Shown here: positions 4,545 to 22,150 of the stretch, in pieces
How positions within the stretch are numbered: position 1 is the stretch's first letter
How the letters are laid out: each line of letters starts with the position of its first letter
Virus record (IMG/VR): IMGVR_UViG_3300010885_057417
Coordinates: 1-23,138 of that record
Length of the DNA: 23,138 nucleotides
Direction: 5' to 3' (one strand)
Origin: a virus
Notes under the pieces: generated by a model
What the model was told of the DNA's origin: nothing
The model's input: only the letters and a program-made list of their open reading frames with translations
Database searches by the model: none
Program-made: the position numbers and the translations under genes

Positions 4545-5198
4545 CTAAATTCCTATAGTAAGACTTTGAATTCTTACAGTATAATCAATCTGTATTAGTC
4601 TATTAAGACTTTTTTGCACCGGGTGGAAAATAACATGTGTTAATAGCATACCGTTACCTTCGATCCCATCTTCACTATAAGCTCGTAAACCAATTTCATC
4701 AAATACAAATTTTCCCTTGGTATCTGAGCTGGTATCAAACGCCTGTTGTCCTGACGGTTCTCCAAAATCAAGCAAACAGCTGACTAGGATATCTGTATAG
4801 GCTGTACCGGTGATATGGCGTATTTCCATAAAATTACGTCTAGGATCTAGGTTCATCGAACCGTTGGCATCAATATTTTTAATATACGTTTGGTTATAGA
4901 GGCTGGCGTTCAACCCCGCAGCATTTGGAGTTAGATAGGTAATGATCCCAGTAGGGTCAATTCTGCTGCCGCCGTTACCAAAACACATTTCAGAAATAAA
5001 GCCCTGCCCTTGGTTGGACATGGCCTGAGCAAGACCTATACTGAAGTTTTCGTAATGTATAGCATTGGGCTTATCGATATAAACCTCTTGGGTATCGGGA
5101 TCGTAAATCTTAATATGACCTCTAAGATGCAAGCTGCCTTGCTCATTCGGTCTCGTTTCCACTGTAGATGTGCTAATTGAATTTTGATTATCGTTCAT
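4545..5198 (-). CDS. Conserved virion structural protein, 217 aa
   Basis: The pattern is familiar to me from marine T4-like phages: HLRGHIKIYDPDTQEVYIDK, PNAIHYENFSIGLAQAM, EMCFGNGGSRIDPTG, ITYLTPNAAG, and a C-terminal RLIQIDYTVRIQSL. I cannot name a T4 counterpart with confidence. The position between the giant wedge-region protein and the fibres suggests a baseplate or fibre-attachment component, possibly occupying the place of T4 gp8, but this is inference from gene order. No signal peptide or membrane segment is visible. The ATG lies inside the end of the giant gene: the two share 11 bp (5188-5198) in different frames. No Shine-Dalgarno precedes the ATG. Instead, GATAAATA lies five bases upstream, so translation is either coupled to the giant gene or starts on a nearly leaderless late transcript. 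Confidence 0.8.
   Translation of the reverse strand: MNDNQNSISTSTVETRPNEQGSLHLRGHIKIYDPDTQEVYIDKPNAIHYENFSIGLAQAMSNQGQGFISEMCFGNGGSRIDPTGIITYLTPNAAGLNASLYNQTYIKNIDANGSMNLDPRRNFMEIRHITGTAYTDILVSCLLDFGEPSGQQAFDTSSDTKGKFVFDEIGLRAYSEDGIEGNGMLLTHVIFHPVQKSLNRLIQIDYTVRIQSLTIGI
4551..4554 (-). promoter_or_regulatory. Ribosome binding site of the 619-residue fibre gene
   Basis: AGGA (within ATAGGA) on the minus strand is eight bases before the ATG at 4542. It lies inside the last codons of the 217-residue gene, whose TAG stop (4547-4545) falls between this site and the start. The spacing is canonical and supports the chosen start. Confidence 0.55.
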
Positions 5199-8100
5199 AG
5201 AGATATTTATCTGGCAATACAGCCGTCCTTTCTAATAAAAATTTAGCCTGCGGTGTAATATTTTTAACTAAAGTCTGAGACGAATTATACCAGGAATGAG
5301 ATCCGCGTTTTGTGACTAAAAGTCTTGCTCCCGGAGTTGGATCAAAACTTAAAACTAAAATCCCTCCAGCTTTCACAGTAAATTCAGGCTGCAACAATAT
5401 ATCACTAGAAACTCCGTGACTGTCTGTCTCTCCTGAATCATAGGCAACTGTTCCATTGTGCTTAACTGCTAAATTACCATCGGGCAACGGCTTGCGCAAG
5501 AGTCTGCCTTGATACACGACTTCAATCTGATCCCAATAGTTTGCACCATCAAAGAAGTTAATACCCGTTATTTGATATTCACGAGTGCCTCTGGCGGTTG
5601 TTGTTTCAAACTCTTCCATACTTTCTTTAAATGGTATTGTCTGCTCTAATCCCTGATCTATCACTGCAGAGCCCACCTCGTAAGATAATTTTGGCATTGT
5701 ACCTAAAGTACCTCTTCGTAACTGCCGCAGTGTATTGCCCAATATCTGGAGGAATTCTATACGTTCGCCATTGATCAATACAATACCTGGACGATTGACC
5801 GCAATATTGGGAGGAGTTAATACTGCAGAATTTTTTACAACAATAACATCATCTTCTATATTCAGAGGTGACTCCAGCTCTGTACTGTTTGTGGCACTCA
5901 ACCGTTTGAAGTGGGTTCTATTTAACATATCTTGGAAGATACGATAAGCTATAGATTGGTTTTGAATGTCTGCAAAACTTGTTACCACAATATCATCATT
6001 AGGGTTCCTATAAAGGCCATCTCTTACTATAATACTTTGGTTGTCTTCACTGACCTTAAAATCCAAATCACTTACCAACGGAACTCCGTTGTAAAAGACC
6101 CATGCATAGGTAGGATGCAGTATCGGTCTTTGCACCCTGTATTGATTATTAGATCTTCCATTAAATCTATCAGTTCTTATAAAGTCTGGATCGTGGTTAG
6201 TAAATGTTATAACGGAAAACTCGTCATTAACCTGTACTGGACTCACAACAACCAAAGACCCGTTATCTATAAGATAGTCGTGTGCCTTCTTAACAACGAT
6301 TGCTACCACATCGCCCGTTTTTAGAGAATTCTGAGCAAATTTAATCTGATTCTTAGTCTTTATAAGCTGCCATTTTAAATTAGCCGGTTCGACCTGACCG
6401 TTAACATATACCTCCAATTCTGTGACGCTAATTTTTCCTTTGGCAAATTTTATAGTTTGACTTATATCAAACGACAGCGGTCCGTTAAACTCATAATAGG
6501 TTGTCGTTGGCGGTATTAGCCTTGCATTATTCTTAGTAACAATTACTTGGCTGTGATATGGTTTTAAATTTCCAGGAGGATTTGACAAAATAAAGACGGT
6601 GTCATCCTTGGATGTCGCAATAAATTTTTGCTCTGTAATTTCACTGAAAGATTTTATTGAATCTTTAAATAAAAATGCCTGTATAGTCCCTGTTTGGTTA
6701 AAAAGAATTTTCAAACTATTTTTATAAACTGAAGAAACATAATCAGTGGTTGCAACTCCGTCAATTGTAGCATATACACTACCGACATTTCTTGCTGGTA
6801 CTGAACTAGTAATTACAGTTCCGGATGTTGCTGTAGAAATTACATGAGTCTCTAACAGACCAATTGTACCCAAATCTAGTGTTGTTAAACTCACCCACCC
6901 GGTTGCAGACGTTTCTGTAGTAAAGGTAATTGAATTATCGAGATAATTTATTGTGTAATCGTGCGGCATGACCTTTTGATTATTAAGCACAACTATTACA
7001 GATTCAGTACTAGTAGGTTTTACTCCCAGACTATAGGCTCTTCGATTTAACGGTCCATTAACATAATATTTTTTATTAATAATTAACGGTGGTACCTGAT
7101 TGGGCAAAGTAAACACATTGATTCCCACGGACTCTCTAATTTGTCCGGGTAACACTTCTTCCGGTGCATGACTATTGAAGGTGTCCAAAAATCCGGAACC
7201 ATCAAAAATTATTTCTGCAGGAGTAACTCCTAATGCATCTCTATAGTCTAACGATCCCCCAACTACTAACGAATCCAAACTTTCTGGATCTGTAGGCGTG
7301 ATTGTTCCGTCAGTTGTCGAATATCTGAATACAACCAAAGTGCTGGTAGTAGTGAATACCGCTGACGGGATAACAACCTCTGTTTGCAAATCTTGCGATT
7401 CGTCGTAACGAAATTCAGCTTTGAGGTCAACAACCGCTAGAGCTTTGACCGTATGATCGCCAACAATGTCAATTATTGGAGGCTCTAAATATCCGCTGCC
7501 CGGATTGTCGATTACCAGATTAACAATAGAATTCGAATTATCATTGGACAATTCTGCATGGATAACAGCAGTAACTCCGTTCAGTGATTCTGGTGGGGAA
7601 ACTATAACCTGTAAAGTATTAGTGTAACCTGATCCCGGATTTATAATTCTTGCCTTGTCTACTCTTCCAGTTCCGGAGCCTATGATTGTCTTCACTGGCT
7701 GGTCTACGCCGTCGACCCGTTTACCATTAATATAGGTATTAATTTCTACGCCTTGAGGGATCGGAGTTGAACTAAGAATATATGTCTGTGTACTAGTTGC
7801 AGTGGTGAGAACACTGATATAACCATCCTCTGGAGAATAGTTGTCCCATGCCGATTCGGCATACGGTAAAGAATCCCATCCTCCTGCAGAATTAAACGGC
7901 AGTGTGTCAACTACTACTCCGGGATACTCAAGACCTGACATCAGCTGCTGAGGAACAACACCCGGCATGCCGCTAGTGGGCGAATAATAGTCCAATATTC
8001 TATCAACTGCAGTGTATAACTCTAAAGACTTAGTATAGGTAATTTCAACGATGTCCCCTAGATTAGGAGCCAACATAAGTTTCAATGATGCTTTTCGCTT

Positions 8101-11100
8101 TTGATATTTGGTATTAGTCTGCGGACGATACACTACTGAGTCAAATTCAATAGTATATGAATCGGCCAGCTGCAGCCCCCCGTTTATTGTCAAGGTAATC
8201 AATCCCTTGTCCGGCACTGGCACCCAAGTTAAATCAAATAGCACAGTAGAACCATTGCCTATAAATTGATCGGTATAGATTTTGTCCCCGATCTCTCTAA
8301 GACCCGATACTCTATCAAACTTTAGTCGTAGGTTAGCTGTTCTTACCGGAGAATTCCCCAATCTTGCATAGACTTTAGCTTTAACTAGCTCAAAATTGCC
8401 GCCGCCGTTGAGTACTACTGTTGGAGTCGAAGTGTACCCCAATCCCGGATTGGTAACTATTATCTGTGTGACTTTTCCGTAGGATATATAAGCAACTGCA
8501 GTGGCCCCTCTTCCGGTATCGCCGGCTGCAGCAATGATGTCAACTCTAGGTACCGAAGTATAGCCAGATCCCCCATCGATGACATCTATACTAGCAACTC
8601 CAAACGTAAAATTATCATACCACGACTTCCAGGGATATTCAAGAAGTTTAGTATTACCAAACTCAACCTTTGTGAATTTAAATGTTGAATTATCAAAGTA
8701 TACTGGCAAATCAAAATCTGTCAGGAATGTTTTGGTAAGCTCTGTGCTTGTAAATACCTCTTTGAATTGGCGTATCTTTGTATGATAGGGCTTGATTTCT
8801 TCTATAAACTTTTCTACGTTTTCACTTGATCTTAATTTATAAGTATGGCGTTGGTCAAGACTACCTGCATTGCTATTAACGCTGATAAATGCAGTCTTAA
8901 ATGCCCAATCTACAAATTTTTGTTCGCTGATTGCATATTTTACCATTTTGAAAAACAGCTTGTTCCAAAGGACTTTTCTGTCAGCAGTAAACACGTCTTC
9001 CTTAAGAGCCTTTAAAATATAAAGAAGTTCTTCGTCAGGCGTTTGATCGTACTCAGTTTGGTCAAAACCAGGCGCTGCATCCCATGCATATTTAGAATTA
9101 TCAAAATTCCATAAGGTATCCAATAGCTGTATGGTAGCATTTTCAAAATAAACCAAATTCCAACCGTCATCAAAGGTACCACCGGACCCATCAGTTTTTT
9201 CTAAAATCATATATCTACCGTCTCCGGAATTTGAAACCTTAACGTAATTTTTAGGTTCTAACAAATCCAAAGAATTCAGTAGATATGGTTCTGACACCGT
9301 AAATGCCAACGTTTTTAAAGGATTGTAGTCATCACTGGCCCAGTCTTGATATTTCCAGTAGATGGATGTATCATAACTCTGTGTTCGGGTCCTAAACCAT
9401 TGCGAAATTGAACTATCCCAGGAATATACTGCCCACTTGCCCCCAATTGTCCTGTCGGCCTGCACTAGAACGGTGTAAGGACGCACCGTTAACTGAGGGG
9501 GCTGTTCATAACCACTGCCACTGTTAACAATTTTAGCTGATGTAACTTGCCCTTGGGCATTTATTGTTGTTTCTACTATTGCGCCGCTGCCAACCTCTGA
9601 AGCCACTGTTATTGTAGGCGCTGTTTGATAACCAAATCCAGATTTAACTACAGTCACTCCTGTCATTCTTCCGTTGGCGTCAATAACCGAAGTTAACTGT
9701 GCAGTGTTAAGATCTTTAGTTAGTACTAGATCACGTGCGTAGATATCCTCTACTAGTTGGTCGTAGAATATAGCGTTAGGTAATTGATCTTTGGCATTAA
9801 GATTTTCAAAGCTTATTTTCCCAACAAGTATTTGGCTTTTTATAACTAAGTTAGCATACTCAATTAGATTTCTTAGTGCTTCTGATCGATTAGCAAACAG
9901 CGACTGCCGTGGCCTAATACCAATCCCGTAACGTGTTCTTGCAGGCAAGCTTGGATCAGGTACTGGGTTGTTTAGACTGTCTCTTCCCAGCAGACTGTCC
10001 GTAAGCTTCTTTTCTAACAAGGCATTAGGCTGACTTCCTGCATCGTTTTCCTGTAATAGTAACCATTCGGTGTGGCGGTTTGCTGCATCATTGATAGAAT
10101 CAAAAGATATATTAAGACTAATCTGCTCGTTAAGAATTGACGGTTTGATATTGGCCAATATCAAAGAATTTGGAGAAATAGTTGCAAGGAATTTAATACC
10201 AGAGTTAAGGGGATCTGCAATATCGTTTGCCACCTCAAATGCTGCTTTACGCCTATTAGGAACATTCTTAGGCACTACTGCTTTATTTTTTACCCAATAG
10301 TAGTAGACATTAGTAAAAGAGTTCGATACTGGATTATAAACCTGCTTAACTGACATAGTGGAGTTGTCAGCAAATTTTGGTTGTCCGCTAATACCACCGG
10401 TGAGCCCAGAAGTCGTGTCTGCTATTCTGCTGTATTCGGCTGGAAGATACTCAGACCGAACCCACTCATAGACATCGATAGAGGACCCTGGGAAAATATT
10501 ATTCCAGTTGTTTTTACGATAGCTTAGTTCTCCCTGCTCATACCAAACAAATTTAACAGTCGAAAGGTCCCACCAGAGCTCACCGACGTGCTCGTCTAAC
10601 CAATTTGTTTCAACATTTACATTGGTGCCTGTGATTCCAAGACTGTATACTGCAGGATCAAACGGAGTTGTATAGCGTAGTTCTTCTCTGGCCGTGCCAA
10701 GGAGCCTCCCCTTGATAGGATCCACAATATCAATATATTCATCGATTTGAAGTTTACTGGTGTTGACTGTTACCGCTCGTTTGATCTTACTAAGATCTAC
10801 TAGAGATTCTTGATATCTATTTTTAAACCACGTGTTCCTATCAACATCTAATTTATCAAAAATAAACACCTGACCGTTGTCTGTTAAATTAGATAGTAAT
10901 CCCGGTGCTCCGACCATTATGCTTCTGTCGTTAACCAAGGTGCTTTGACCATAGAGACTGTTGCTGGGCACCTCGGTATTAAAAATTTCCTGAGCATAAA
11001 TCCATTTATATCTATAACGATTATAACAGTGCACCGAACCGCCGTTGACTACTGTTCCATAAAACGTGGTAATTCCAGCATCGAAGTCTGTTAGTCTTTT

Positions 11101-14100
11101 ATTTGGAACACTGGTTTTATCATTAACATAGGGAGTGGCATACGTGCTGGTTGATCGATCAATCGGCAGGCGCTGGCTGTAGATATCAAAGGTAGTATCC
11201 AGCGTGGTGTTATTTCCCACCGACGAGATGACCATAACTTGACTATTTGCATTAAAGGAAATATCGTAGCCAAAACTGGTGTCTGCAGAGGTAATCGGTG
11301 CATGTATTCGTTGGTTATGTACATATTGCCCGGAACGCCATCTAAACACATCAACTACACCGGAATTTGTCCCACGAACTGCATCGTATGCTACCGGACT
11401 ACCGACAATCAAAAATTGTCCATCTTGTGTGATACGAACTACCTTACCAAACTGATCATTGCCGCCCATTGGTGCAGGTAAGTCATCCCCTGTAATTACT
11501 GTAGCTGTTGAGGTAGAAGCAAAGTTATAGACAAAAACAGCACCGTAGGAGTTTAGAGATCGATATCCGGGAACAGACACAGCCACACGCATAGAATCAT
11601 TACTACAGGCCAAATCAGTTCCGAATTCTAAACCAGGAACATTTGGGGTTGCTGGCGCAATATGTCGATTGATTACAAACCCTTCGGGCTGCACCCCTAT
11701 ACGGTACCCGTAGACTGCTCCAGAATTTTGATTATGTCCGGGCGATCCCACATACAGAACATTCGTTACGGTCGAGTATGCAAGACTATACCCAAATAGT
11801 GCATTATCTTCCGGGGTTGGAACTGTGATAAAAGTTGAGATAGTTTCGGCATGGGCAAAGGGCGATATAATAGATAGCTTTACCAATCCCTGTAGTTTTG
11901 TTCTGGGGTATTCGTTAGATACAAACAATGTATCTTGTCGATCAAATGATATTTGCCTGCGGCGCCTTAGACTAAAGGGGTCGTCCACATATATTGAACG
12001 ATAGGTGTTTTTAGCCACATCTGGATCGAGTCTTTCAGAATAAACGTCAAATGTGGTTCCAAATGACCTAATATAAGAAGTTTTAGGAGCTCCTGCAATT
12101 ATTAGATTTTTAGTCTCGTCAAACACTAGACTGTAACCCAACGCAGTTGGTTCTGTGCCGTCATAGATCGTTTGGAGTTCCGAATTTACACTGTAATCTA
12201 AAATTGCCTGGGGCTTATCTTTAAATAGCCTAGATAACACATAAATGTAGCCTTTAAATTTAGCTGCTGATCCTTGTTTCTCGGGTGCAGACACTACAAT
12301 AAGAGTACTTTCGCTGTTTGCTGCAACTTTGGTCCCAAAGTGCTGCCCCGATTGATTAACATTAGTATCATAGTTTATGCCAGCGTAGTTGTCTTCTTTT
12401 TTGTAAACAGCCCATTTGCCAGCGTCAGCATCGTCTACCCAAGCATTTTCACCGTATTTCCATCTTTCGACGTACGGAACATCATCTAAAGAATCAAAGG
12501 TGCTCATTCTTGAAGATCTAAAATTAAACAGGCGGCCTCTGACATCTCCTTTGACCGATGGTAAAGAAGTCAGGCTAGTGAGTACCACAAACGAATTAGC
12601 AGAAACAACCTGTTGGACAATGTAACACTGGTCAACACCGCTAGCTACATTAGTGATGCTAATTAATTGCCCCACACTGAGCCGATGGTCGTAATAAGTC
12701 GACACCGTCATCGACACTCCGGGTGAGGTTAACTCTACTCCTACTATGATTGTCGGAGCCCTGGTCAATCGTAACACATCCCAACTACCGCTTTCGGTAA
12801 ACCCTAACCAAATGGTGTTGCCTTCTTTGAGAGCAGAGTTATTAGATATATCCAGCACACTGTTTTTATTGTATGCTGTTGCAGTCACGTCATCAAATCT
12901 AACATAGCCTGCATTGGGGAGTTCAAGTACATCTTCTGTGTATTCTAGATCAACAGTTGGAAACGATGATTTTATATCAAACTCGTCGGGTTTTATTACT
13001 AGATCTTGAGAATCTCTGTAATAAACAGAATCTACTCTAGAGTAAGGTTTTTGTTCAACAATACTGATGATCTGAGGATTTTCTATAAATTCCGTTGCTG
13101 TTAACTCAAACTCCAACTCTTGATAAGTGTTGTATCCGCCGTAGTAGCCGATACGAAACGCCCATTCTTCATTGAAATCGGTCGTAGACCTATAGTTCTG
13201 CAAACTAGCTTTGTTCAGGTTAAGTAACGGAGTTTTTGTTCCCTTGTCTCTAATATACCCTTGATAAAACTTATACTCAGCAATAGAGTTACCTATAACA
13301 TTATTAAGATAGGGTCTGGGAGAATATCCCACTAAATGCTGAGCCAAAGACTGCTGATCAGGATCAAAATTGTCAATATCTAGACTATAAAAATCCTCAA
13401 ATTGAGAAATTTTATAGTCAAAATTGGGGATCAACCTAGCTACCGGCTTATCTCTTAACAATGTCCATTGGTTAATATTAAAGCTGGTTGTTCCGACGAT
13501 TCGTTGATTGGCTGTGTAATATTTGTCTGAAAATCTCACAACATCGCCTACCAAATAATCGGTATTTTTTTCCCAGTCATTGACTTCTGCAGTATCGTAG
13601 ACGAATCCTGGACTGAATAAATCACCTATCCAATCTTTTGTCCTAAATCCATCAATCTTTACTCTCAGCTGCCTGTAGCCTGTATCAACGTCGTAGATAA
13701 CATCATTAAACAGTGAACGGTTTTTAAAAACTACCGCATGCTCTTTTTGTACTAGATTAAGTCTTGCAAAAAAAATACCGTCTACATTATTTGTGGTCTT
13801 AATACTAAACTCGCCAGAGAGTCGCATTGCAGAAAAGCTCTGAACAGGTAACGCAGTTCCATCAACTCTTAATAGGCTATATTCGTAAAAATCATCTAAA
13901 AGATCTCCCACAACACCTTCATCGGAAGCAAACTCTAACTTGTTAGCAAAAGGACTTAGTGTAATAACCGATCCTTGCTGCCAATTTTGAGTAGTCCAAT
14001 ACAGAAATTCTTTGACCGAGAATCTCCAGTCCACAACCTGCTCAAGATCACTGTTGAATTCATTAAAAATAAATCCCTTAGATTCTAAATATTTTCCGTA

Positions 14101-17100
14101 GCCTAGAATTAAATCGCAAACTTCTTGTGCTGTTGAAAATTCAAAACCATAGGGTATTACTGTTTTGGTTGTAGAGAATCTAGTCCTACGAATGACCTCA
14201 ATGCCGCCGACTGTTGGAAGATACGGAAGACTTCTGTAGTACTGCTGCATAAAAGACGAGTCACTGTTATGACGTTGCAGCACTCGATAGTATCTGTCAA
14301 GATAAAATACCACCTGATCTACATCATATATGGTATTAGGTTGCCAGGCCACAAACGGTTCACTGACGGCCCCAACTCTTTCGACAGTATCAGACACGCT
14401 GTCGATCGGTTGAAAAATTGTAAAGTAAGGGTCATATTTGTTATAACCACGAACTGTAAAGCCGCCGCTAGTGGTCTGCACTATGATTCCAGATATTGCA
14501 ATAGTTTGCACAGGATTACTTTGATTCAATACAACATCAAAATCGTCAGAAGAAACCAATACTCCAGAATAAGGACTGGACGGGTTGACTGCATCAATAC
14601 TCACCAACAATTTCTCTTTACTAACAAATCCTCCAACTTTAAACATAAGGTTGTAGGTTAGATTGTTTAGATCTTTTCTAAGGTTACCGATGTAGTTAAC
14701 ATCTCGAAACAGCCCGGCTTCGATTACCATCACACTGTATCCAGACGCTAGGGTTTGTACACCGTTGACTACTTCATAGCCTAATAGAAGATTAGTTATC
14801 TGAGGGAAATTGTTATAAGCCGTATACTTAGATTGGCCAGCAAGATTTTTGGCAATACGACTAGTGTCAAACATTTTGCAGGCATATTCTGATGGGGCTG
14901 ACAATGCCATTAAGATTTGGCATGCATATGGCCAAAAACTGCTGCGGCGCCAAGCAGTTTCTGCAGGACCGTGATCCCCAAAGTTCCAACCACTGCTGAT
15001 ACTTTCACTGCGTATTACCACAATCCTTTTGGGATCATTAGGATTAACAACAGGAGTAGTAGCCAACCCAATCGTAGCCGGATCTAGAAGATTACCTATT
15101 TCATCCACTGGTATTATTTTTGATAATCCAGGACGGGCATATCTGAGATCAATTCCCTGACTACTTCCTGCAGCAATGCGTCCTTGCTCGAGATCTTTCC
15201 ATAGAATTAAATTACCGCTAGTGTATGGAGCTGGTCCATAGGTTGCAGTCCACCAAGTAGGCATTTCACTGAATCCCAACATCTCCCAGGGATGTGTGTG
15301 CGGCCTATCTGTGTCAAAAAAGTATTTGTAAATGCCCCGCCAATACCCGGGCAACTTATTCTTACCAATACTATCTATGTTAGCAGAATAGTTAAAAGTA
15401 AAAGGATTTAACTGATCAAAATTATCGTTAGTTTGATAATCAACCCCATAAAATCCTGCCCAACGTAGAAAATCTGCTAATATTAGCTTGTTAGATTCTT
15501 GCAGAGAAGATTTATTAGACTTTCTAAATGCACCAGGAAGGATGTCATACAAATTAACTAAATTATTATTAAAAGAAACTTTAAGATTATTGTAAACCCT
15601 AGTCTCGTACTCCAATAAGATGTCGTCTCGGTAATCATTAAAGGCCACTGTTATACTGCCATCGTGGCCTTGGATTACATTCTTTGGTCCATCAGCATAT
15701 GTATCATCGACGTACTTACAAGGTACAAATTTTGGATAAAGACCCAGTTTAGTTGGAGTTGGGGGGATATAACTACGAGAAGTATCTGCATAATCGTAGA
15801 CCTCTATAACCGAACCTTGTTCTAAGTCCAAAAGCATAGTAAAACTAGCAAGATACTTATCGATCAGATAATCTCGACCCCTGATCAAAAGACGCCCGTT
15901 ATAGTATATCAGAATAGATCTGTTACTCAAAATTTGATCATCAAAGATGCTGGTAAGACCATACTTCTTAAGACGAGGGCTAGTGACCACATACTTACGC
16001 AATAAGAAATTCGATCCATGAGCTACCATATCAGAATATGCGTAAGGAAGGGACCCGCCCTTGCCAGAACTCATATTAGATAATACTGTATCGAGACTCT
16101 CACGAACTGAGGAGTATACTGGTAGTTCTGAAATGCTTTTAATGAGAGTAAACTTAAATTGGTTATAGTCTACGCAGACTTTACGAGTAGCTGTTACTAG
16201 ACTGTGTTCAGCAGAACCTAAAAAGAATTGACAAAAACTTAACGGGGTTTGATGGCTCACCAAACGAGTCCCATAACTACTAATGTTATCTAGATCTCTA
16301 AGATTGTTTGATCCAAGAAATATTCCGTTAAATTTTGGGTGATTGGCTGTTATAGATTTTACATGATCACTAAGTTCAGAAAAGGTAAAATCCGATATTG
16401 GTCCGTTGAGCGGATTATTAGTTAAACTAGTTGGAATTTCATACTGGCCGTTATTATTTGAAGGCCGGCGAGTAAAAATCTTTATTAACACACGATCGTT
16501 TTTATAAAACGATGCTCGGGTGGCAACATAGGCACGAGACTGATCGATGACCACAGTAAAGTCAACATTCCTTGTCTGTTTAGCATCATTAACAAACACT
16601 TCTACAACCATTCCAGAATCATAGCCTGGATCGTTTATGGCAGTTATTTCTATACTGGTAGCATCAGCTTCTAGTACCTGATATTGAGTTATAGGTATGG
16701 GCAGATCCTGTGTATCCACCCAAACATTGCAATATTCATTCGAGCTACCATTGTTAATTTTTAAAAACCCATTAGACACTTTAAGAACTTCGATAGAATT
16801 ATTATCGTAAATTGTAAAAGTGTCTGTCATGAAATTGTTTTCAAACAGATAGTCCCCCACATTTCCTACATTTCTGTAGGCTAGCGGAAATCCTAAAATG
16901 GTGTCGGCAGTTCCTGAACCAACTCCATAAGAAAAGATCTTAGTTCCTATGAACGAACTGTCATAGATGGCAGTATCTGAAAACTTTTGACTGTTGGCAT
17001 CGTACAACTCAAATAATGGTGGCTGGTTTAAAGTTGTTTTTTGTTGAGAATAGACCCACCGACTGCCATTATACCGCCAAGCCGAATTAGAAAAGTTATC

Positions 17101-18666
17101 TCCGTGTATTACCGAAACTGAGCTGTTAGTGGCTGGTAGAGAATCGACTGCTTCGTCTAGATTTACAAGCTCATCGCTGCCGATGCGGACAATAGAAACT
17201 TCAAAAATTCTTCCGCATACATCAGGATCAGAATCATTGTTAAATATCACCCTGTGACCGTTTTGCAGTCTTACACCGTCGACATAAAAGCCGTAACTTC
17301 CTTCTACAGTATTAAAGGCACTGGTCGTAACAGTGTCGATAAGGTCAACATTCTTAACGGCCGTATCACCAAAGTTATGGAGCTGTAGATTTGAAAAGAA
17401 TTCTATGATCGGCCGTTGAGCACGAAAATCAGCAGGATATACTGGCTGACCGCCGTTAGCACGGGCAGTGGCAGCGATGACGTCTTGGTGAATCCATCTA
17501 TTATATCTACTCCACGGATTCCTATCTGATGAAGCGCGATTAATGGTTATATAATCAGGAACTAACGCTACAAATTTAAAGTCGTCAAACGGATACTCAC
17601 CGAATGGCGTGGCATCAAAATTAACATTCAACCCAAAGCTTTTGGTGTTTTGTGTTTGTAGTTCTTCATAATCGATCAGTGTTATTGACGACCCTACACC
17701 TTCGACAATCCACTCCTTGTCTAAATAACTAGATGGAACTACGGAACCAACAAATGTTATCTTCATGCCGTTAGATAGAGCAACTCCAGAAGCCGAAGTA
17801 AATGACGATTTTCCTATAATCTCGTCTTCAACATTAAGAAATGTATTTTGATCGATAGTTTTTACTACAATCTGCCCGACTGCAGTGTCATTATCTTCTG
17901 CAAAATAAAACAATGTATCTGGAGTGAACTCGTCGACCGTAAGTGTTAGCCGCCCCGCACGAACCCCGTTATTAACTGCTCCTAGATATAAGCTGTCCAC
18001 ACCTTTAACGTAGGCAGTTTTAATATAAAACTTATACTTGCTGCTAACATCGAACGTATAGGTAATGCCGCGATAAAGAGTTAGAGTAGGAGAAGTAGTA
18101 CTTCCCTCAAGATCGAATAAAAGAAAATTTCCATCAGGAGAATCTTTAACGTTATAACCGGTTATAGTATTTTTTTGATGACCGGAGATCGCTATACTTT
18201 CAGGCCCATTTGGTAACCAATAATATTGCCTAAAATTTATAAATTTATCCCAGTCTATTAAAGGGCAGTATGAATAAGTTTCTGGTCTAAATAATGTATC
18301 TAAATTTTGTGTGTATGCTCCCTCGTATGACAACTGGTTAATTAGATCGTCATACCCGATGATACGTTTAACAGACCCGTCTGGATTACGTACAATCATC
18401 GACGGTTCGAACCGATAATCATTGCGAAGTTTGTTTTTGTCGCTGATATAAAAGTCGCTAGCCGGGTTATAATTTAAGCTCTGCTGGCTACCAATGTAAC
18501 CGCTTATTCTTTCAATTGAGGGTTGCTGAACCAGCTGATCAAGCGTACTGGCTAAAAATTTGATATTTTTCTCAGTTCTAAGATAGCTAGGTAAAAGATC
18601 AGACGACCTTCTTGAACTCGATACGTTATTAACACTATCTACGTTAATTAAATCTTTTCCTGCCAT
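5188..18666 (-). CDS. Giant mosaic virion structural protein (baseplate/tail, 4492 aa)
   Basis: A single uninterrupted 4492-codon frame whose ATG is 2 bp after the gp6 stop. The N-terminal third matches what I know of very large structural proteins in marine myoviruses: LPSYLRTEKNIKFLASTLDQ (res ~24), IDWDKFINFRQYYWLPNGP (~137), RNPWSRYNRWIHQDVI (~380), RPIIEFFSNLQLHNFG (~415), HPWEMLGFSEMPTWW (~1122). Then come two CBM5/12-like modules (~1437-1475 and ~1690-1738), a seven-bladed FG-GAP propeller (~2108-2605), three GSGY motif pairs (~3003-3063, 3360-3424, 3670-3740), IKPYHTKIRQF (~3290), recurrent small beta units (mostly ~3490-4230), and a C-terminal block with PGIVLINGERIEFL and LRRGTLGTM (~4290-4322). 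There is no signal peptide or membrane span. Following gp6, it occupies the place of T4 gp7/gp8. I infer a wedge/peripheral baseplate component with adhesive domains. Many 'tail fibre' or 'hypothetical' labels could be given to such proteins; the exact function is unknown. Confidence 0.9.
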   Translation of the reverse strand: MAGKDLINVDSVNNVSSSRRSSDLLPSYLRTEKNIKFLASTLDQLVQQPSIERISGYIGSQQSLNYNPASDFYISDKNKLRNDYRFEPSMIVRNPDGSVKRIIGYDDLINQLSYEGAYTQNLDTLFRPETYSYCPLIDWDKFINFRQYYWLPNGPESIAISGHQKNTITGYNVKDSPDGNFLLFDLEGSTTSPTLTLYRGITYTFDVSSKYKFYIKTAYVKGVDSLYLGAVNNGVRAGRLTLTVDEFTPDTLFYFAEDNDTAVGQIVVKTIDQNTFLNVEDEIIGKSSFTSASGVALSNGMKITFVGSVVPSSYLDKEWIVEGVGSSITLIDYEELQTQNTKSFGLNVNFDATPFGEYPFDDFKFVALVPDYITINRASSDRNPWSRYNRWIHQDVIAATARANGGQPVYPADFRAQRPIIEFFSNLQLHNFGDTAVKNVDLIDTVTTSAFNTVEGSYGFYVDGVRLQNGHRVIFNNDSDPDVCGRIFEVSIVRIGSDELVNLDEAVDSLPATNSSVSVIHGDNFSNSAWRYNGSRWVYSQQKTTLNQPPLFELYDANSQKFSDTAIYDSSFIGTKIFSYGVGSGTADTILGFPLAYRNVGNVGDYLFENNFMTDTFTIYDNNSIEVLKVSNGFLKINNGSSNEYCNVWVDTQDLPIPITQYQVLEADATSIEITAINDPGYDSGMVVEVFVNDAKQTRNVDFTVVIDQSRAYVATRASFYKNDRVLIKIFTRRPSNNNGQYEIPTSLTNNPLNGPISDFTFSELSDHVKSITANHPKFNGIFLGSNNLRDLDNISSYGTRLVSHQTPLSFCQFFLGSAEHSLVTATRKVCVDYNQFKFTLIKSISELPVYSSVRESLDTVLSNMSSGKGGSLPYAYSDMVAHGSNFLLRKYVVTSPRLKKYGLTSIFDDQILSNRSILIYYNGRLLIRGRDYLIDKYLASFTMLLDLEQGSVIEVYDYADTSRSYIPPTPTKLGLYPKFVPCKYVDDTYADGPKNVIQGHDGSITVAFNDYRDDILLEYETRVYNNLKVSFNNNLVNLYDILPGAFRKSNKSSLQESNKLILADFLRWAGFYGVDYQTNDNFDQLNPFTFNYSANIDSIGKNKLPGYWRGIYKYFFDTDRPHTHPWEMLGFSEMPTWWTATYGPAPYTSGNLILWKDLEQGRIAAGSSQGIDLRYARPGLSKIIPVDEIGNLLDPATIGLATTPVVNPNDPKRIVVIRSESISSGWNFGDHGPAETAWRRSSFWPYACQILMALSAPSEYACKMFDTSRIAKNLAGQSKYTAYNNFPQITNLLLGYEVVNGVQTLASGYSVMVIEAGLFRDVNYIGNLRKDLNNLTYNLMFKVGGFVSKEKLLVSIDAVNPSSPYSGVLVSSDDFDVVLNQSNPVQTIAISGIIVQTTSGGFTVRGYNKYDPYFTIFQPIDSVSDTVERVGAVSEPFVAWQPNTIYDVDQVVFYLDRYYRVLQRHNSDSSFMQQYYRSLPYLPTVGGIEVIRRTRFSTTKTVIPYGFEFSTAQEVCDLILGYGKYLESKGFIFNEFNSDLEQVVDWRFSVKEFLYWTTQNWQQGSVITLSPFANKLEFASDEGVVGDLLDDFYEYSLLRVDGTALPVQSFSAMRLSGEFSIKTTNNVDGIFFARLNLVQKEHAVVFKNRSLFNDVIYDVDTGYRQLRVKIDGFRTKDWIGDLFSPGFVYDTAEVNDWEKNTDYLVGDVVRFSDKYYTANQRIVGTTSFNINQWTLLRDKPVARLIPNFDYKISQFEDFYSLDIDNFDPDQQSLAQHLVGYSPRPYLNNVIGNSIAEYKFYQGYIRDKGTKTPLLNLNKASLQNYRSTTDFNEEWAFRIGYYGGYNTYQELEFELTATEFIENPQIISIVEQKPYSRVDSVYYRDSQDLVIKPDEFDIKSSFPTVDLEYTEDVLELPNAGYVRFDDVTATAYNKNSVLDISNNSALKEGNTIWLGFTESGSWDVLRLTRAPTIIVGVELTSPGVSMTVSTYYDHRLSVGQLISITNVASGVDQCYIVQQVVSANSFVVLTSLTSLPSVKGDVRGRLFNFRSSRMSTFDSLDDVPYVERWKYGENAWVDDADAGKWAVYKKEDNYAGINYDTNVNQSGQHFGTKVAANSESTLIVVSAPEKQGSAAKFKGYIYVLSRLFKDKPQAILDYSVNSELQTIYDGTEPTALGYSLVFDETKNLIIAGAPKTSYIRSFGTTFDVYSERLDPDVAKNTYRSIYVDDPFSLRRRRQISFDRQDTLFVSNEYPRTKLQGLVKLSIISPFAHAETISTFITVPTPEDNALFGYSLAYSTVTNVLYVGSPGHNQNSGAVYGYRIGVQPEGFVINRHIAPATPNVPGLEFGTDLACSNDSMRVAVSVPGYRSLNSYGAVFVYNFASTSTATVITGDDLPAPMGGNDQFGKVVRITQDGQFLIVGSPVAYDAVRGTNSGVVDVFRWRSGQYVHNQRIHAPITSADTSFGYDISFNANSQVMVISSVGNNTTLDTTFDIYSQRLPIDRSTSTYATPYVNDKTSVPNKRLTDFDAGITTFYGTVVNGGSVHCYNRYRYKWIYAQEIFNTEVPSNSLYGQSTLVNDRSIMVGAPGLLSNLTDNGQVFIFDKLDVDRNTWFKNRYQESLVDLSKIKRAVTVNTSKLQIDEYIDIVDPIKGRLLGTAREELRYTTPFDPAVYSLGITGTNVNVETNWLDEHVGELWWDLSTVKFVWYEQGELSYRKNNWNNIFPGSSIDVYEWVRSEYLPAEYSRIADTTSGLTGGISGQPKFADNSTMSVKQVYNPVSNSFTNVYYYWVKNKAVVPKNVPNRRKAAFEVANDIADPLNSGIKFLATISPNSLILANIKPSILNEQISLNISFDSINDAANRHTEWLLLQENDAGSQPNALLEKKLTDSLLGRDSLNNPVPDPSLPARTRYGIGIRPRQSLFANRSEALRNLIEYANLVIKSQILVGKISFENLNAKDQLPNAIFYDQLVEDIYARDLVLTKDLNTAQLTSVIDANGRMTGVTVVKSGFGYQTAPTITVASEVGSGAIVETTINAQGQVTSAKIVNSGSGYEQPPQLTVRPYTVLVQADRTIGGKWAVYSWDSSISQWFRTRTQSYDTSIYWKYQDWASDDYNPLKTLAFTVSEPYLLNSLDLLEPKNYVKVSNSGDGRYMILEKTDGSGGTFDDGWNLVYFENATIQLLDTLWNFDNSKYAWDAAPGFDQTEYDQTPDEELLYILKALKEDVFTADRKVLWNKLFFKMVKYAISEQKFVDWAFKTAFISVNSNAGSLDQRHTYKLRSSENVEKFIEEIKPYHTKIRQFKEVFTSTELTKTFLTDFDLPVYFDNSTFKFTKVEFGNTKLLEYPWKSWYDNFTFGVASIDVIDGGSGYTSVPRVDIIAAAGDTGRGATAVAYISYGKVTQIIVTNPGLGYTSTPTVVLNGGGNFELVKAKVYARLGNSPVRTANLRLKFDRVSGLREIGDKIYTDQFIGNGSTVLFDLTWVPVPDKGLITLTINGGLQLADSYTIEFDSVVYRPQTNTKYQKRKASLKLMLAPNLGDIVEITYTKSLELYTAVDRILDYYSPTSGMPGVVPQQLMSGLEYPGVVVDTLPFNSAGGWDSLPYAESAWDNYSPEDGYISVLTTATSTQTYILSSTPIPQGVEINTYINGKRVDGVDQPVKTIIGSGTGRVDKARIINPGSGYTNTLQVIVSPPESLNGVTAVIHAELSNDNSNSIVNLVIDNPGSGYLEPPIIDIVGDHTVKALAVVDLKAEFRYDESQDLQTEVVIPSAVFTTTSTLVVFRYSTTDGTITPTDPESLDSLVVGGSLDYRDALGVTPAEIIFDGSGFLDTFNSHAPEEVLPGQIRESVGINVFTLPNQVPPLIINKKYYVNGPLNRRAYSLGVKPTSTESVIVVLNNQKVMPHDYTINYLDNSITFTTETSATGWVSLTTLDLGTIGLLETHVISTATSGTVITSSVPARNVGSVYATIDGVATTDYVSSVYKNSLKILFNQTGTIQAFLFKDSIKSFSEITEQKFIATSKDDTVFILSNPPGNLKPYHSQVIVTKNNARLIPPTTTYYEFNGPLSFDISQTIKFAKGKISVTELEVYVNGQVEPANLKWQLIKTKNQIKFAQNSLKTGDVVAIVVKKAHDYLIDNGSLVVVSPVQVNDEFSVITFTNHDPDFIRTDRFNGRSNNQYRVQRPILHPTYAWVFYNGVPLVSDLDFKVSEDNQSIIVRDGLYRNPNDDIVVTSFADIQNQSIAYRIFQDMLNRTHFKRLSATNSTELESPLNIEDDVIVVKNSAVLTPPNIAVNRPGIVLINGERIEFLQILGNTLRQLRRGTLGTMPKLSYEVGSAVIDQGLEQTIPFKESMEEFETTTARGTREYQITGINFFDGANYWDQIEVVYQGRLLRKPLPDGNLAVKHNGTVAYDSGETDSHGVSSDILLQPEFTVKAGGILVLSFDPTPGARLLVTKRGSHSWYNSSQTLVKNITPQAKFLLERTAVLPDKYLYER
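5204..5211 (-). promoter_or_regulatory. Candidate T4-type late promoter before the 217-residue gene
   Basis: The minus strand reads GATAAATA, 7 of 8 matches to the T4 late consensus TATAAATA, ending five bases before the ATG at 5198. In T4 this box occupies about -13 to -6, so the predicted start of transcription coincides with the A of the ATG. The box lies within the last codons (Asp-Lys-Tyr) of the giant gene. It is one of only three ATAAATA cores I found on this strand. Confidence 0.45.
7450..7660 (-). repeat. GSGY motif pair C in the giant protein
   Basis: Coding repeat, residues ~3670-3740: ARIINPGSGYTNTLQV and, about 43 residues on, VIDNPGSGYLEPPIIDI. The intervening stretch is short beta strands rich in Val, Ala and Ile. 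It is the third of three such pairs; boundaries are approximate. The pattern fits an autonomous beta-rich structural unit; a binding function is not shown. Confidence 0.7.
8395..8590 (-). repeat. GSGY motif pair B in the giant protein
   Basis: Coding repeat, residues ~3360-3424: DVIDGGSGYTSVPRVDI and, about 42 residues later, IVTNPGLGYTSTPTVVL, separated by a Gly/Ala-rich strand segment with GRGATAVA. It has the same arrangement as pairs A and C. It directly follows the KPYHTKIRQF segment by ~70 residues. Confidence 0.7.
9480..9660 (-). repeat. GSGY motif pair A in the giant protein
   Basis: Coding repeat, residues ~3003-3063: TVVKSGFGYQTAPTITV and, about 41 residues on, AKIVNSGSGYEQPPQLTV, with VGSGAIVETTINAQGQV between. 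It is the first of three pairs in the C-terminal third of the giant protein. Limits are approximate because I set them by eye from the motif period. Confidence 0.7.
10850..12345 (-). other. Seven-bladed FG-GAP beta-propeller region of the giant protein
   Basis: Seven successive units share the FG-GAP (integrin-alpha N-terminal) pattern: FG/LG start, hydrophobic strand, GAP/GSP-like cage, then a G-x-V-x-x-Y/F strand. Approximate starts: F2110 (FGTKVAANSE, VSAPE), 2175 (LGYSLVF, IAGAPK), 2288 (LFGYSLAY, VGSPGH, GAVYGYRI), 2348 (FGTDLAC, SVPGY, GAVFVYNF), 2404 (FGKVVRI, VGSPV, GVVDVFRW), 2464 (FGYDISF, GGSVHCYNR), 2569 (LYGQSTL, VGAPGL, GQVFIFDK). Seven is the number that closes the integrin-type propeller. 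The calcium-loop aspartates typical of integrin blades are not clear. The fold call rests on the repeat pattern; ligand binding is inference. Confidence 0.75.
13450..13595 (-). other. CBM5/12-like module 2 of the giant protein
   Basis: Residues ~1690-1738 read DWEKNTDYLVGDVVRFSDKY, then YTANQRIVGTTSF and NQWTLL. This is the W-xxxxx-Y-xxGDxV-x-x-x-x-xYY-A ... F ... W pattern of CBM5/12-type carbohydrate-binding modules, about 45 residues long. Such modules bind chitin or other glycans in cellular enzymes and also occur in phage tail proteins. Here the module is inferred from aromatic spacing only. Confidence 0.5.
14220..14355 (-). other. CBM5/12-like module 1 of the giant protein
   Basis: Residues ~1437-1475 read FVAWQPNTIYDVDQVVFYLD, then RYYRVLQRHNSDSSF. 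It has the same W...Y...V.....YY layout as the second module ~250 residues later, but lacks the usual GD pair (DVDQVV in place of xxGDVV) and the closing Trp (QQYYRSLP instead). It may be a diverged copy. Glycan binding is a hypothesis. Confidence 0.45.
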
Positions 18667-18668
18667 AG

Positions 18669-21600
18669 TTATACGCCCTTAGAAGTGCTGGTAAAAATTG
18701 TCGACGCTGCATTTATCTGAGCTGATGTCAATGCATCGATTATTTCTATATCATCAACAGTAGCCCCGCTGACTAAAATTTCATGAGACTGACATGCAAT
18801 TTCAAATAAACTACCAAATGCAATCGTTGGATCTTTCGGTACAATCACAAAATTAACTATATCTGGAGAAACTTGATTTAACACATAGGTCGACAATTCA
18901 GTAAAATTAAAAGATTGGCCAAAATCCCAATTATCAAGATTGAAAAATTCATTTATAGCTGATAGTATTTTTGATTTTAGATCGTTATCGCTAGCAATTC
19001 TAGTGCTATTTCTCACTGCTTTGAATGTGCACTGTAGATTAGATGGAGCTAAAGATCCAAACAATACTTTATATCGCGCTGATTGAAATATTAACGTATC
19101 CGAAACGCTTTTGATATTTTCTAATTTTTCAGAAAAATCGTTTTCCAAACTCTGACTAGTTGGCGGTAGAGGCTCCGACCCGGACCCTATCTGCAGATAT
19201 TTTCTAAAAGCCAAATCGTAGCTGGCGGTTAATACATACACATCAATGATATTGCTCTTACTAGGATCAATTCTTCTCTCATCGCCAGTATTATGTATGT
19301 AATGAAATTTTAATCCAGCTCTTCCTAATTTAGCAAAGTACTGGTTAGTGAGCATAAATGTCTGCGTAGCAGCATCATAATACTTGATTACATCAATATC
19401 TGGATCGTAGAAGTAAAAAAGTTGACCGTTTTCTGGAACAAAATTTACCGATCCTTCATTGGGCAGAGATTGGATAGAACTCTGATCAACTACTAACGAA
19501 TAACGATTGTTGTCCGCTGATATCTTAAAATAGACAAATTTATTGTAGTATCCTCGACTGTCAGTGGTCTTTGGAGAAACAATGTCTTCAAATGCATCTG
19601 GTGAATCTATTTGCCCATCATTGTTTGCATCGTAAAAACTCACTACGACTTTTTTTGGTTCGACATAGCCATCGGGTTCTACAACTGCACTTTCAATCTG
19701 CCATCGATAATCTGCACTTAGACTCATTCCGCTAGTGGGGCTATTATTAACTGACAGCACATCAATTTGGTCTTTAAGGATTGTATCTGTGGTATAGTCG
19801 TAATTAAAATTAGAGTAATCAACAAAAAACGCTGTCTGATTAGCACTTTCAAAAATGTATTCAGTTAGCCGATAAGTAACCTTATATGCTAATCCGGTCC
19901 ACTGAAATAACACTAGCCAACTACTGTCCTTTTGTAAGTTTGTCAAATCTCCTTGATAGAGTAGACTAAAGTTAGATATAAAATCCAAATTACTGTTGGT
20001 TATTATATACCAACTACGAGAAATTTTGTCAAAACCTAGACCAAAATTTTGGCGGACTAAACATAAATTTACAATCTGAGTCTCGAATGCATAACTGAAT
20101 GCAGTCACAAATGCCGGAATGAGCTCAACCGGAACTGCTTCACTAGGAATCTTCCCCGATGTAATTATCGGTCCAGTACCGTCGTCTAAATTTCCTTTAC
20201 CAGAATTTGCACCATCGCCAATCACTTGAATTACCTTAGACCACTTATACAAAGTAGTAGTAGGGTCTAAAATCTCAGTGAGTTGACCATTTTTAGCGAA
20301 GTAGGTCTGTCTACCATTTATTACAGGCGCTTGAAATTTAATCAGAGTCCCTTGGCCGATATATTGCAAACTAGTTATACTAAAATTACCAACCAGGACC
20401 GGCAGCTGATTGTTGATAGTTTGAAAGTAACCAGTAGTTTGATCAGATTTTTTTGTTGATCGAACCCACTCTAGATTTAATGTTTGAAGTGAAGGCCGTG
20501 GATAGTTTTCAAAATAAAAGTTTTTGAAACTTTTTGAGACAATGATCGGCTCCAACTGCTTTTTGATTGCAGAGAACAACTGATTTCTCGATTGAAACTT
20601 AAATTCAAAACTAGGAGTTTTTTCTTCTTTGTAGAGTATTCCGTCTTTGGCAAAAATATCAGTGCTACTGTATTTTCCACTGATATCTGACAGCTCAAAA
20701 TACTTAGAAATACCGCTGCTAATTCGATTGACACTACTAACCTTAAGTACCCCACTGCCTGCAGTCAACGGACCTATGTTATAGTCCTCGGCTGTGATCA
20801 TTCTATTCTGTAGATAATAGGCCTGGGGAGCCTTAAGCTTTATATCAGCGGACGACTCTGTACCTCTACTGTTATCTACAGTATACTGCAGACCCAATGT
20901 TAGAGTCAGTCTATGGTCAATTCCGGCTTTGTTTTGATAAGGAATTATAATACTAATTCCTGACATTTGATCAGGACTTATAGAGTACCGTTGACTGTTA
21001 CTTTGTCGATAGAATAGTCTAAAAGATCCCCTAGGTAATTCTCCGAAAGAGCCATCAGTAAAATTAAGATCAATCTGATCGTTGGCTCTAGATGCAACAG
21101 AATACAACGTTCTTGTACTTTTTGAAAGACTGTTATAAATTACATTGTTTCCAGTAAGAGAATTAACCTTTGTCCATAAAGTATCGTAACCGCCAGTTAC
21201 TCCTAGCTGCCAGAGCCAAACGTCAGTATCGTTGATTCCACTGGCATTGACCCCAATTACTTCATTAGGCACCGGGCTCGTGATATTAAACGGAGTTGAC
21301 CCCATAGTCCCCTGTCTAAAATGCACAAAAAATCCTGTGTTTGCTGACCCTGCGCCTTGATTATCATTTTGAAAAACAAAATTAAAAGCACTACCAGGAA
21401 CTGGAGGAGGCTCATAGATATAGCTACTATCTTTAAATATAGCTCCTGTGATCTCAAATGTCATAGGAGATCCATTAACGGACTTGGTAACAGAATAGAT
21501 AGGTAAATCAGAATTTGTACTGTTGATACTATACTGTTCAGTAGTTACTCCTAAAATAACATCCTTGTTATCGGGCCTACCAAAAATCATAGAGCCCTCC

Positions 21601-22088
21601 ATACTAGAATTCATAATGCTAATAAATTGCTGATACCAATTGGTGTTTGCAGAGTCATTCCATACGATAACTTGATTGGCTAGATTTGTGCCGTTGGCGT
21701 CTAGCACAGACTCGGTGGTGCTGACCGCAAGTATTTTCAGCATTCCATGAGCAGGAACGTTACGTTTGGGATTATAACTAACCAACTGTGCAAGACGCAG
21801 AATGCTTTCTCGCCGTTGTGCTGTTTCTAAGAAATTTTCTCTAGAGTTTAGATCTATACGAAAACTTAAATTCTGCCCTAGATACGCAATAAGATCTACC
21901 AATGCAATATATTCACTGCTGTCGATATAATCATTGAAATCTTCAGGATAGGTCTGACGCAGATAATTAATCATCGTACGTCTAAGAGTTTCAAAGTCGT
22001 AGCTTTGAAAATCCGCATTACGGAAGCTTTGGTAAATCTTAGTCCAGTCCTCTGCGACTAATAATTGTGAGTTTGTAGATGGTATCAT
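18669..22088 (-). CDS. 6: gp6-like baseplate wedge protein
   Basis: A T4 gp6-type wedge subunit with a baseplate J-like core. In T4, gp6 forms the ring that joins neighbouring wedges around the hub. The N-terminal ~120 residues are diagnostic: DWTKIYQSFRNADFQSYDFE, then LRQTYPEDFNDYIDSSEY, ALVDLIAYLGQNLSFRIDLN, SRENFLETAQRRESILRLAQ and GMLKI. The C-terminal part has NEFFNLDNWDFGQSFNFTEL, typical of gp6 ends. An EF-hand-like loop DANNDGQIDSPD lies near residues 820-831. At 1139 residues it is much longer than T4 gp6 (about 660). The frame can extend to a TTG at 22100, but I chose the ATG at 22088 because it gives MIPSTNSQL and leaves ~25 bases after a late-promoter match; no good Shine-Dalgarno decides the question. 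It lies 55 bp downstream of gp25 and 2 bp upstream of the giant gene. Confidence 0.92.
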   Translation of the reverse strand: MIPSTNSQLLVAEDWTKIYQSFRNADFQSYDFETLRRTMINYLRQTYPEDFNDYIDSSEYIALVDLIAYLGQNLSFRIDLNSRENFLETAQRRESILRLAQLVSYNPKRNVPAHGMLKILAVSTTESVLDANGTNLANQVIVWNDSANTNWYQQFISIMNSSMEGSMIFGRPDNKDVILGVTTEQYSINSTNSDLPIYSVTKSVNGSPMTFEITGAIFKDSSYIYEPPPVPGSAFNFVFQNDNQGAGSANTGFFVHFRQGTMGSTPFNITSPVPNEVIGVNASGINDTDVWLWQLGVTGGYDTLWTKVNSLTGNNVIYNSLSKSTRTLYSVASRANDQIDLNFTDGSFGELPRGSFRLFYRQSNSQRYSISPDQMSGISIIIPYQNKAGIDHRLTLTLGLQYTVDNSRGTESSADIKLKAPQAYYLQNRMITAEDYNIGPLTAGSGVLKVSSVNRISSGISKYFELSDISGKYSSTDIFAKDGILYKEEKTPSFEFKFQSRNQLFSAIKKQLEPIIVSKSFKNFYFENYPRPSLQTLNLEWVRSTKKSDQTTGYFQTINNQLPVLVGNFSITSLQYIGQGTLIKFQAPVINGRQTYFAKNGQLTEILDPTTTLYKWSKVIQVIGDGANSGKGNLDDGTGPIITSGKIPSEAVPVELIPAFVTAFSYAFETQIVNLCLVRQNFGLGFDKISRSWYIITNSNLDFISNFSLLYQGDLTNLQKDSSWLVLFQWTGLAYKVTYRLTEYIFESANQTAFFVDYSNFNYDYTTDTILKDQIDVLSVNNSPTSGMSLSADYRWQIESAVVEPDGYVEPKKVVVSFYDANNDGQIDSPDAFEDIVSPKTTDSRGYYNKFVYFKISADNNRYSLVVDQSSIQSLPNEGSVNFVPENGQLFYFYDPDIDVIKYYDAATQTFMLTNQYFAKLGRAGLKFHYIHNTGDERRIDPSKSNIIDVYVLTASYDLAFRKYLQIGSGSEPLPPTSQSLENDFSEKLENIKSVSDTLIFQSARYKVLFGSLAPSNLQCTFKAVRNSTRIASDNDLKSKILSAINEFFNLDNWDFGQSFNFTELSTYVLNQVSPDIVNFVIVPKDPTIAFGSLFEIACQSHEILVSGATVDDIEIIDALTSAQINAASTIFTSTSKGV

Positions 22089-22113
22089 ATGCCACGCCAA
22101 ATAATGGATAACA

Positions 22114-22135: not shown

Positions 22136-22150
22136 GCAGTTTATTACTGC
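22136..22150 (-). other. Small hairpin at the gp25 stop codon
   Basis: GCAGT and ACTGC (plus strand 22136-22140 and 22146-22150) form a perfect 5-bp stem with a 5-base loop; the gp25 TAA (22146-22144) lies at the edge of the loop. No U tract follows in the minus direction, so I do not call it an intrinsic terminator. It could modestly stabilise the gp25 transcript end or be chance. Confidence 0.2.

Follow-up and report, generated by a model that had tools for sequence, protein, structure and literature searches.

The 23,138-base viral stretch analysed here (IMGVR_UViG_3300010885_057417, hereafter the window), in which every long gene lies on the minus strand, encodes a 4492-residue giant structural protein, and residues 2091-2610 of this giant are predicted to fold into a full FG-GAP beta-propeller of seven blades, of the integrin-alpha type. 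The propeller stands in the turn of a beta-hairpin, and its occurrence among relatives is best explained by one acquisition in the ancestor of a clade that is known from metagenomes alone. The repeats, the predicted fold, the insertion site, the clade distribution, and the faster divergence of the insert were all computed directly. The propeller, the two strands that flank it, and its blades are placed as follows.

10837..12396, minus strand: predicted seven-bladed FG-GAP (integrin-alpha-type) beta-propeller insert, aa 2091-2610, ~520 residues (FG-GAP_2, seven units, AlphaFold2, Foldseek, empty-site alignment)
12397..12420, minus strand: stem strand 1 of the ancestral hairpin, GKWAVYKK, aa 2083-2090 (model strand AVYKK; aligns with the WTVYKR-type strand of empty-site relatives)
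10810..10836, minus strand: stem strand 2 of the ancestral hairpin, NTWFKNRYQ, aa 2611-2619 (model strand WFKNRY; aligns with RWTAFRQ of empty-site relatives)
12154..12351, minus strand: blade 1, aa 2106-2171 (unit hidden Markov model [HMM] 19.8 bits; model strands)
11809..12153, minus strand: blade 2, aa 2172-2286, with a ~66-aa B-C loop (unit HMM 14.1 bits; loop comparison)
11638..11808, minus strand: blade 3, aa 2287-2343 (unit HMM 28.3 bits)
11464..11637, minus strand: blade 4, aa 2344-2401 (unit HMM 33.4 bits)
11287..11463, minus strand: blade 5, aa 2402-2460 (unit HMM 24.9 bits)
10966..11286, minus strand: blade 6, aa 2461-2567, with a ~59-aa B-C loop carrying TFD...TTFD (unit HMM 6.1 bits; four model strands; conserved columns)
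10822..10965, minus strand: blade 7, aa 2568-2615, continuing into the stem strand (unit HMM 18.6 bits)

A preliminary description of the window had placed seven FG-GAP-like units at 10850-12345, which corresponds to residues 2108-2606 of the minus-strand open reading frame (ORF) 5188-18666. The same count was obtained with an HMM of a single unit trained without the window's own rows, which found exactly seven positive units within aa 2106-2606 (2106-2165, 2174-2209, 2288-2322, 2345-2393, 2403-2460, 2462-2564, and 2568-2606) and none elsewhere in the 4492 residues, though the segmentation is not fully independent since the training units were cut at columns picked from the window. Among 314 propeller-bearing sequences the modal unit count is also seven (173 sequences), with some eight-unit counts taking in weak matches outside the insert, and 47 of 48 propeller-less sequences score zero with the unit HMM. 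In Pfam, the HMM match that the preliminary description anticipated was found with PF14312 (FG-GAP_2) and not with PF01839, the model it had named: hmmscan of the propeller excerpt gave E 3.5e-10 and 40.3 bits against a cut-off of 23, while a Pfam scan of the whole 4492-residue giant does not list FG-GAP_2. None of the PHROG families covers the insert. Could the pattern be a chance reading of beta-rich sequence? Not all units are convincing by eye, and unit 6, at 6.1 bits alone, falls within the range of the shuffle control, in which 2 of 200 shuffled propeller regions held any domain above 5 bits (maximum 7.8); this unit is supported instead by alignment and structure. Against a chance origin, five lines (Pfam, the unit HMM with its shuffles, a profile search of the PDB, AlphaFold2, and Foldseek) agree, so that this reading is refuted and is given next to no probability.

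The AlphaFold2 model of the propeller, built from 103 phage relatives, reached a mean predicted local distance difference test (pLDDT) score of 88.3 and a predicted template-modelling (pTM) score of 0.87, and contains seven sets of four strands. In a Foldseek search of the PDB, the 43 best matches were all integrin alpha propellers (best E 2.1e-15; integrin-side TM-score up to 0.63), with an identity of ~13% in the fold alignments. The sequence profile of the 103 relatives, used by itself, also retrieved integrins, with alpha4 reaching E 3e-17 and all matches down to E 2e-4 being integrins. The integrin-alpha-type propeller proposed in the preliminary description is thus supported by the model and its matches. 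The ring is probably closed, judging from the strand count of the model and the near full-length integrin matches, and model strand 55-61 (aa 2094-2100) is positioned to act as the N-terminal velcro strand in the last blade.

The N-terminal propeller of integrin alpha subunits (alpha4, alphaV, alphaIIb, alphaM, alpha5) likewise consists of seven FG-GAP-type units forming four-stranded blades. However, the window propeller lacks the DxDxDGxxD calcium sites that integrins carry in the A-B loops of the later blades. Its own A-B loops are just 3-5 residues long, and the calcium-site motif D.[DN].[DN]G..[DE] was found in only 1 of 116 inserts. It also has no thigh or calf domains, transmembrane helix, or beta-subunit partner, and it sits within a 4492-residue phage protein with phage sequence on both sides. 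Lacking these calcium sites and all other parts of the subunit, the region is an integrin-type propeller domain and not an integrin.

That the propeller is an inserted domain, as first suggested from the window alone, is seen at a recognisable empty site in propeller-less relatives, which sets the exact insert at aa 2091-2610. In the alignment, the ~520-residue propeller takes the place of the two-residue turn of a WxVYKK/WxxxRxQ beta-hairpin. One propeller-less relative (L232) reads GAWTVYKRAQGRWTAFRQQEYKVD at this site, whereas in the window ~520 residues separate GKWAVYKK from NTWFKNRYQESLVD. The model of the L232 region (pLDDT 84.8) has strands at 236-241 and 244-250 with two residues between them, and matching hairpin strands flank the propeller in the window model. 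Since the strands joined by two residues at the empty site correspond to those flanking the propeller, the propeller is placed in the turn of the hairpin. Another propeller-less locus (L155) carries a different insert of ~60 residues (ORF residues ~2240-2330) in seemingly the same hairpin, and the site may therefore be an insertion hotspot.

The genes that give the giant its context lie directly upstream of it.

22144..22581, minus strand: gp25-like baseplate wedge protein, 145 aa (PF04965 GPW_gp25, E 8.6e-10)
18669..22100, minus strand: gp6-like baseplate wedge protein, 1143 aa (phrog_10646, E 6.6e-286; phrog_219, E 1.5e-19)
5188..18666, minus strand: giant baseplate-locus structural protein, 4492 aa, phrog_10938 family (phrog_10938, E 0, 1131 bits)

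The giant is assigned to the baseplate region because of these gp25-like and gp6-like neighbours, in keeping with the original placement of the propeller in a baseplate-region protein. The same order of gp25, gp6, and giant genes recurs in Atu_ph07, Phosso, and others, and homologues of the giant are present in 91 cultured phage records. By homology and synteny, it is the giant structural protein conserved among jumbo phages of the RaK2/PA5oct/Atu_ph07 type, with counterparts in RaK2, 121Q, MIJ3/PA5oct, Atu_ph07, Phosso, SCTP-2, and Vibrio phage 2.275. The domain downstream of the propeller is 32% identical to that of MIJ3 (E 2e-55). The flanks had been described as ordinary marine-phage structural sequence; the phage structural part of that wording stands, but "ordinary marine" gives way to a protein of this jumbo-phage family. 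For comparison with T4 gp7, the giant's gene comes after the gp6-like gene, phmmer with the full-length giant found no relative in the PDB, and the Foldseek matches of an empty-site relative were weak and partial (TMq ~0.1). These matches of the empty-site host domain, to ubiquitin E1 enzymes and of low TM-score, were set aside as meaningless.

The remaining minus-strand genes of the window include one for a 217-residue product of phrog_11259, a family whose function is not known, and two for fibre-like proteins, the first of which ends C-terminally in a Phage Tail Collar domain. Elsewhere in the giant, CBM_5_12 (chitin-binding type 3) matches two stretches (best aa 1440-1468, E 4.6e-8), and GSGYxxxPxVxV-type repeats at aa ~2997-3061, 3356-3423, and 3667-3749 cross-match several unrelated PHROGs.

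The propeller was found in 313 of 361 family loci and was absent from 48; some contigs were fetched more than once, and clustering at 80% leaves 158 with and 39 without it. In a tree built from the conserved domain next to the propeller, the propeller-bearing sequences form one side of a branch with a Shimodaira-Hasegawa-like approximate likelihood ratio test (SH-aLRT) support of 100. The sole exception, L143, is uninformative on the insert, as its contig begins at the anchor, and the propeller is present in all clade members on the tree whose upstream sequence is available. The tree comes from a quick search and its rooting was not inferred; a gain of the propeller is assumed because the empty site is the widespread state. 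All nine cultured phages examined in detail lack the propeller, and the clade bearing it is known only from metagenomes. Since propeller-bearing contigs reach 322-355 kb (L031, L115, L137), the clade includes jumbo genomes.

Two different propellers served as tblastn queries against 50,697 phage records, where nothing similar came up save the FG-GAP array of Phosso gp108, and a plasmid search returned only distant archaeal FG-GAP proteins. Viral contigs gave no match when the propeller was the only query, whereas the conserved downstream domain succeeded as a query; the failure is attributed to the divergence of the insert, which defeats short peptide patterns. When genomes were scanned with the downstream domain, a single phage-like contig turned up, in a metagenome bin and without a clue to the host.

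Compared with the nearest relatives, the propeller is the least conserved run of 500 residues in the giant, at ~25-53% per 100-residue block against mostly 45-82% elsewhere. Across 112 sequences, pairs that are 65-70% identical downstream average 62% identity in the upstream flank and 43% in the insert. Such low conservation, together with the further nested inserts tolerated in some relatives, would suit a weakly constrained spacer or decoration that contributes bulk only and has no dedicated ligand. However, the propeller is kept by every clade member on the tree that has its upstream sequence, the unit count centres on seven, and the core strands are better conserved than the loops, and a mere spacer is accordingly considered improbable.

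The loops themselves differ by position. The median standard deviations of loop length are 5.3 for B-C and 3.5 for D-A loops, on the top face, against 0.5 for A-B and 1.7 for C-D loops, on the bottom, and top loops vary more in length than bottom ones in a one-sided Mann-Whitney test (p 0.015; one test of 27 loops treated as independent, with faces assigned by integrin strand order). The blade-2 loop of the window (aa 2204-2248, ~11923-12057) and its blade-6 loop (aa 2491-2535, ~11062-11196) are 44% identical, with an alignment score of 94 against a maximum of 47 in 2000 shuffles. Judged by this alignment, blade 2 carries a diverged copy of the loop of blade 6. Among the other inserts listed, none has the copy there, and where a match in a relative spans most of the loop, it falls at that relative's own blade-6 position. 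Between its blades, the propeller of one relative (L355, ORF residues ~1250-2030) has several hundred intervening residues, among them a carbohydrate-binding module, CBM5/12 (E 2.2e-7, over the cut-off), and further modules that look CBM5/12-like. Extra domains between blades and irregular unit spacing are found in L355, L275, and L345, all of them clade members that branch early or are divergent. By eye, a dockerin-like EF-hand stretch was seen in the propeller of L096 (L096:8003-10045) and an immunoglobulin-like stretch in that of L103 (L103:5072-7249), neither of which Pfam listed.

The blade-6 B-C loop keeps a nearly invariant TFD...TTFD element, which serves as a signature of the clade and includes an invariant Asp at model position 490. 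Many propellers are glycosidases or lyases, and the conserved element with its Asp would suit an enzyme, or the remnant of one, acting on envelope polysaccharide. This is thought very improbable, even more so than a spacer, given that the best fold matches are non-enzymatic integrins and that no catalytic family reached the cut-off in the domain searches.

For the function of the propeller, the highest-ranked reading is an outward surface-contact head on the periphery of the baseplate, to which about an even chance is given. An integrin-alpha-fold propeller would have entered the hairpin turn of the giant once, in a T4-like jumbo-type phage lineage, turning the hairpin into a two-strand stem and the propeller into an outward-facing head that would touch the bacterial surface. 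We infer the position on the virion, the orientation, and the contact function of the propeller. A role in receptor contact is plausible from sequence comparison, as the propeller is the fastest-evolving domain, the loops on its presumed top face are variable, and carbohydrate-binding modules are nested in a relative; the binding itself is putative.

Several observations weigh against such a head. The integrin calcium-site motifs are missing, the fibre candidate with the collar domain encoded nearby could be the main adhesin, the faces compared above are taken from integrin strand order, and the faster divergence of the insert may reflect weak constraint. Host-range determinants are often mosaic, but the distances of insert and backbone correlate (Spearman 0.74-0.76; 0.87 between the two flanks), and no pair among the 112 sequences met the thresholds set for swapped inserts. 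On these two grounds, the propeller is taken to travel with its backbone.

Such vertical co-inheritance without swaps would also be expected of a rigid docking disc for another virion protein (a fibre, a spike, or a neighbouring wedge), the divergence of which tracks a co-evolving partner. The near-invariance of TFD...TTFD fits a docking surface as well, fibre- and collar-like genes lie downstream of the giant, and the nozzle propeller of phage SU10 docks short tail fibres and the tail needle (PMC9509320). However, all other family lineages examined make the baseplate protein without a propeller, and the strong variation in loop length and the nested carbohydrate-binding modules suit an exposed contact surface better. 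A docking platform is thus ranked below the surface-contact head and is regarded as rather unlikely, though less so than a spacer or an enzyme. For the surface-contact head, it is tentatively proposed, at somewhat under even confidence, that the clade took up the propeller once in one hairpin turn and then diversified it by loop growth, transfer of loops between blades, and nested glycan-binding modules, which would make it a fixed-position, vertically inherited adhesion head and not a swappable tail-fibre tip.

Propellers at phage baseplates and integrin-like phage proteins are already known, and the window propeller differs from them in place and history, as a single hairpin-turn insert in a giant baseplate-locus protein confined to an uncultured clade. 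In the collection of papers searched, none joins FG-GAP, phage, and baseplate. The jumbo myophage phiKZ carries, as the C-terminal domain of gp131 (4GBF), a propeller of seven blades at the edge of its baseplate, for which a receptor or enzyme role has been suggested (PMC4901313), but this domain is not a hairpin insert and falls outside the 50 best fold matches listed. The receptor-binding protein of phi11 bears a propeller on a baseplate adhesin that is five-bladed and trimeric (PMC4901313); its best structural match is glutamine cyclotransferase, as opposed to integrin for the window propeller. The SU10 nozzle protein contains a seven-bladed propeller with domain insertions in a phage tail protein (PMC9509320), where it forms the core of a podovirus nozzle and has a structural role.

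Other precedents come from phages of the same extended group. The AP-J-162 hemagglutinin, gp213, has been reported as structurally similar to human integrin 3VI3 (PMC11242549), and the "hemagglutinin" of Atu_ph07 (A0A2L0UZX4) matches the propeller model at E 1.3e-16 (TMt 0.68). Although these Sinorhizobium and Agrobacterium jumbo phages thus have an integrin-like propeller too, theirs are stand-alone proteins of 375-394 residues, and no such insert is present in the giants of Atu_ph07 and Phosso. Sinorhizobium phage Phosso gp108 (XYS97267.1; L003:8726-19804) is likewise an FG-GAP_2-bearing jumbo-phage protein, with 3692 residues made up mostly of FG-GAP_2 units (E 1.5e-172, 19 stretches), but it differs in being an array of units with Laminin_G_3 near its C-terminus and in being encoded by a separate gene. 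The host protein of the insert is the phrog_10938 virion structural protein of RaK2, 121Q, PA5oct/MIJ3, and others, syntenic after the gp6-like gene; in the cultured members examined, the hairpin site is empty or differently filled.

Since the position of the empty site is fixed to about two residues, the propeller can be expressed, deleted, or compared directly with insert-free relatives. The ligand-binding architecture of integrins recurs as a clade-defining insert in a baseplate-locus protein of a widespread uncultured phage group, and the propeller is a candidate module for adhesion in phages of which the collection searched contains no cultured member.

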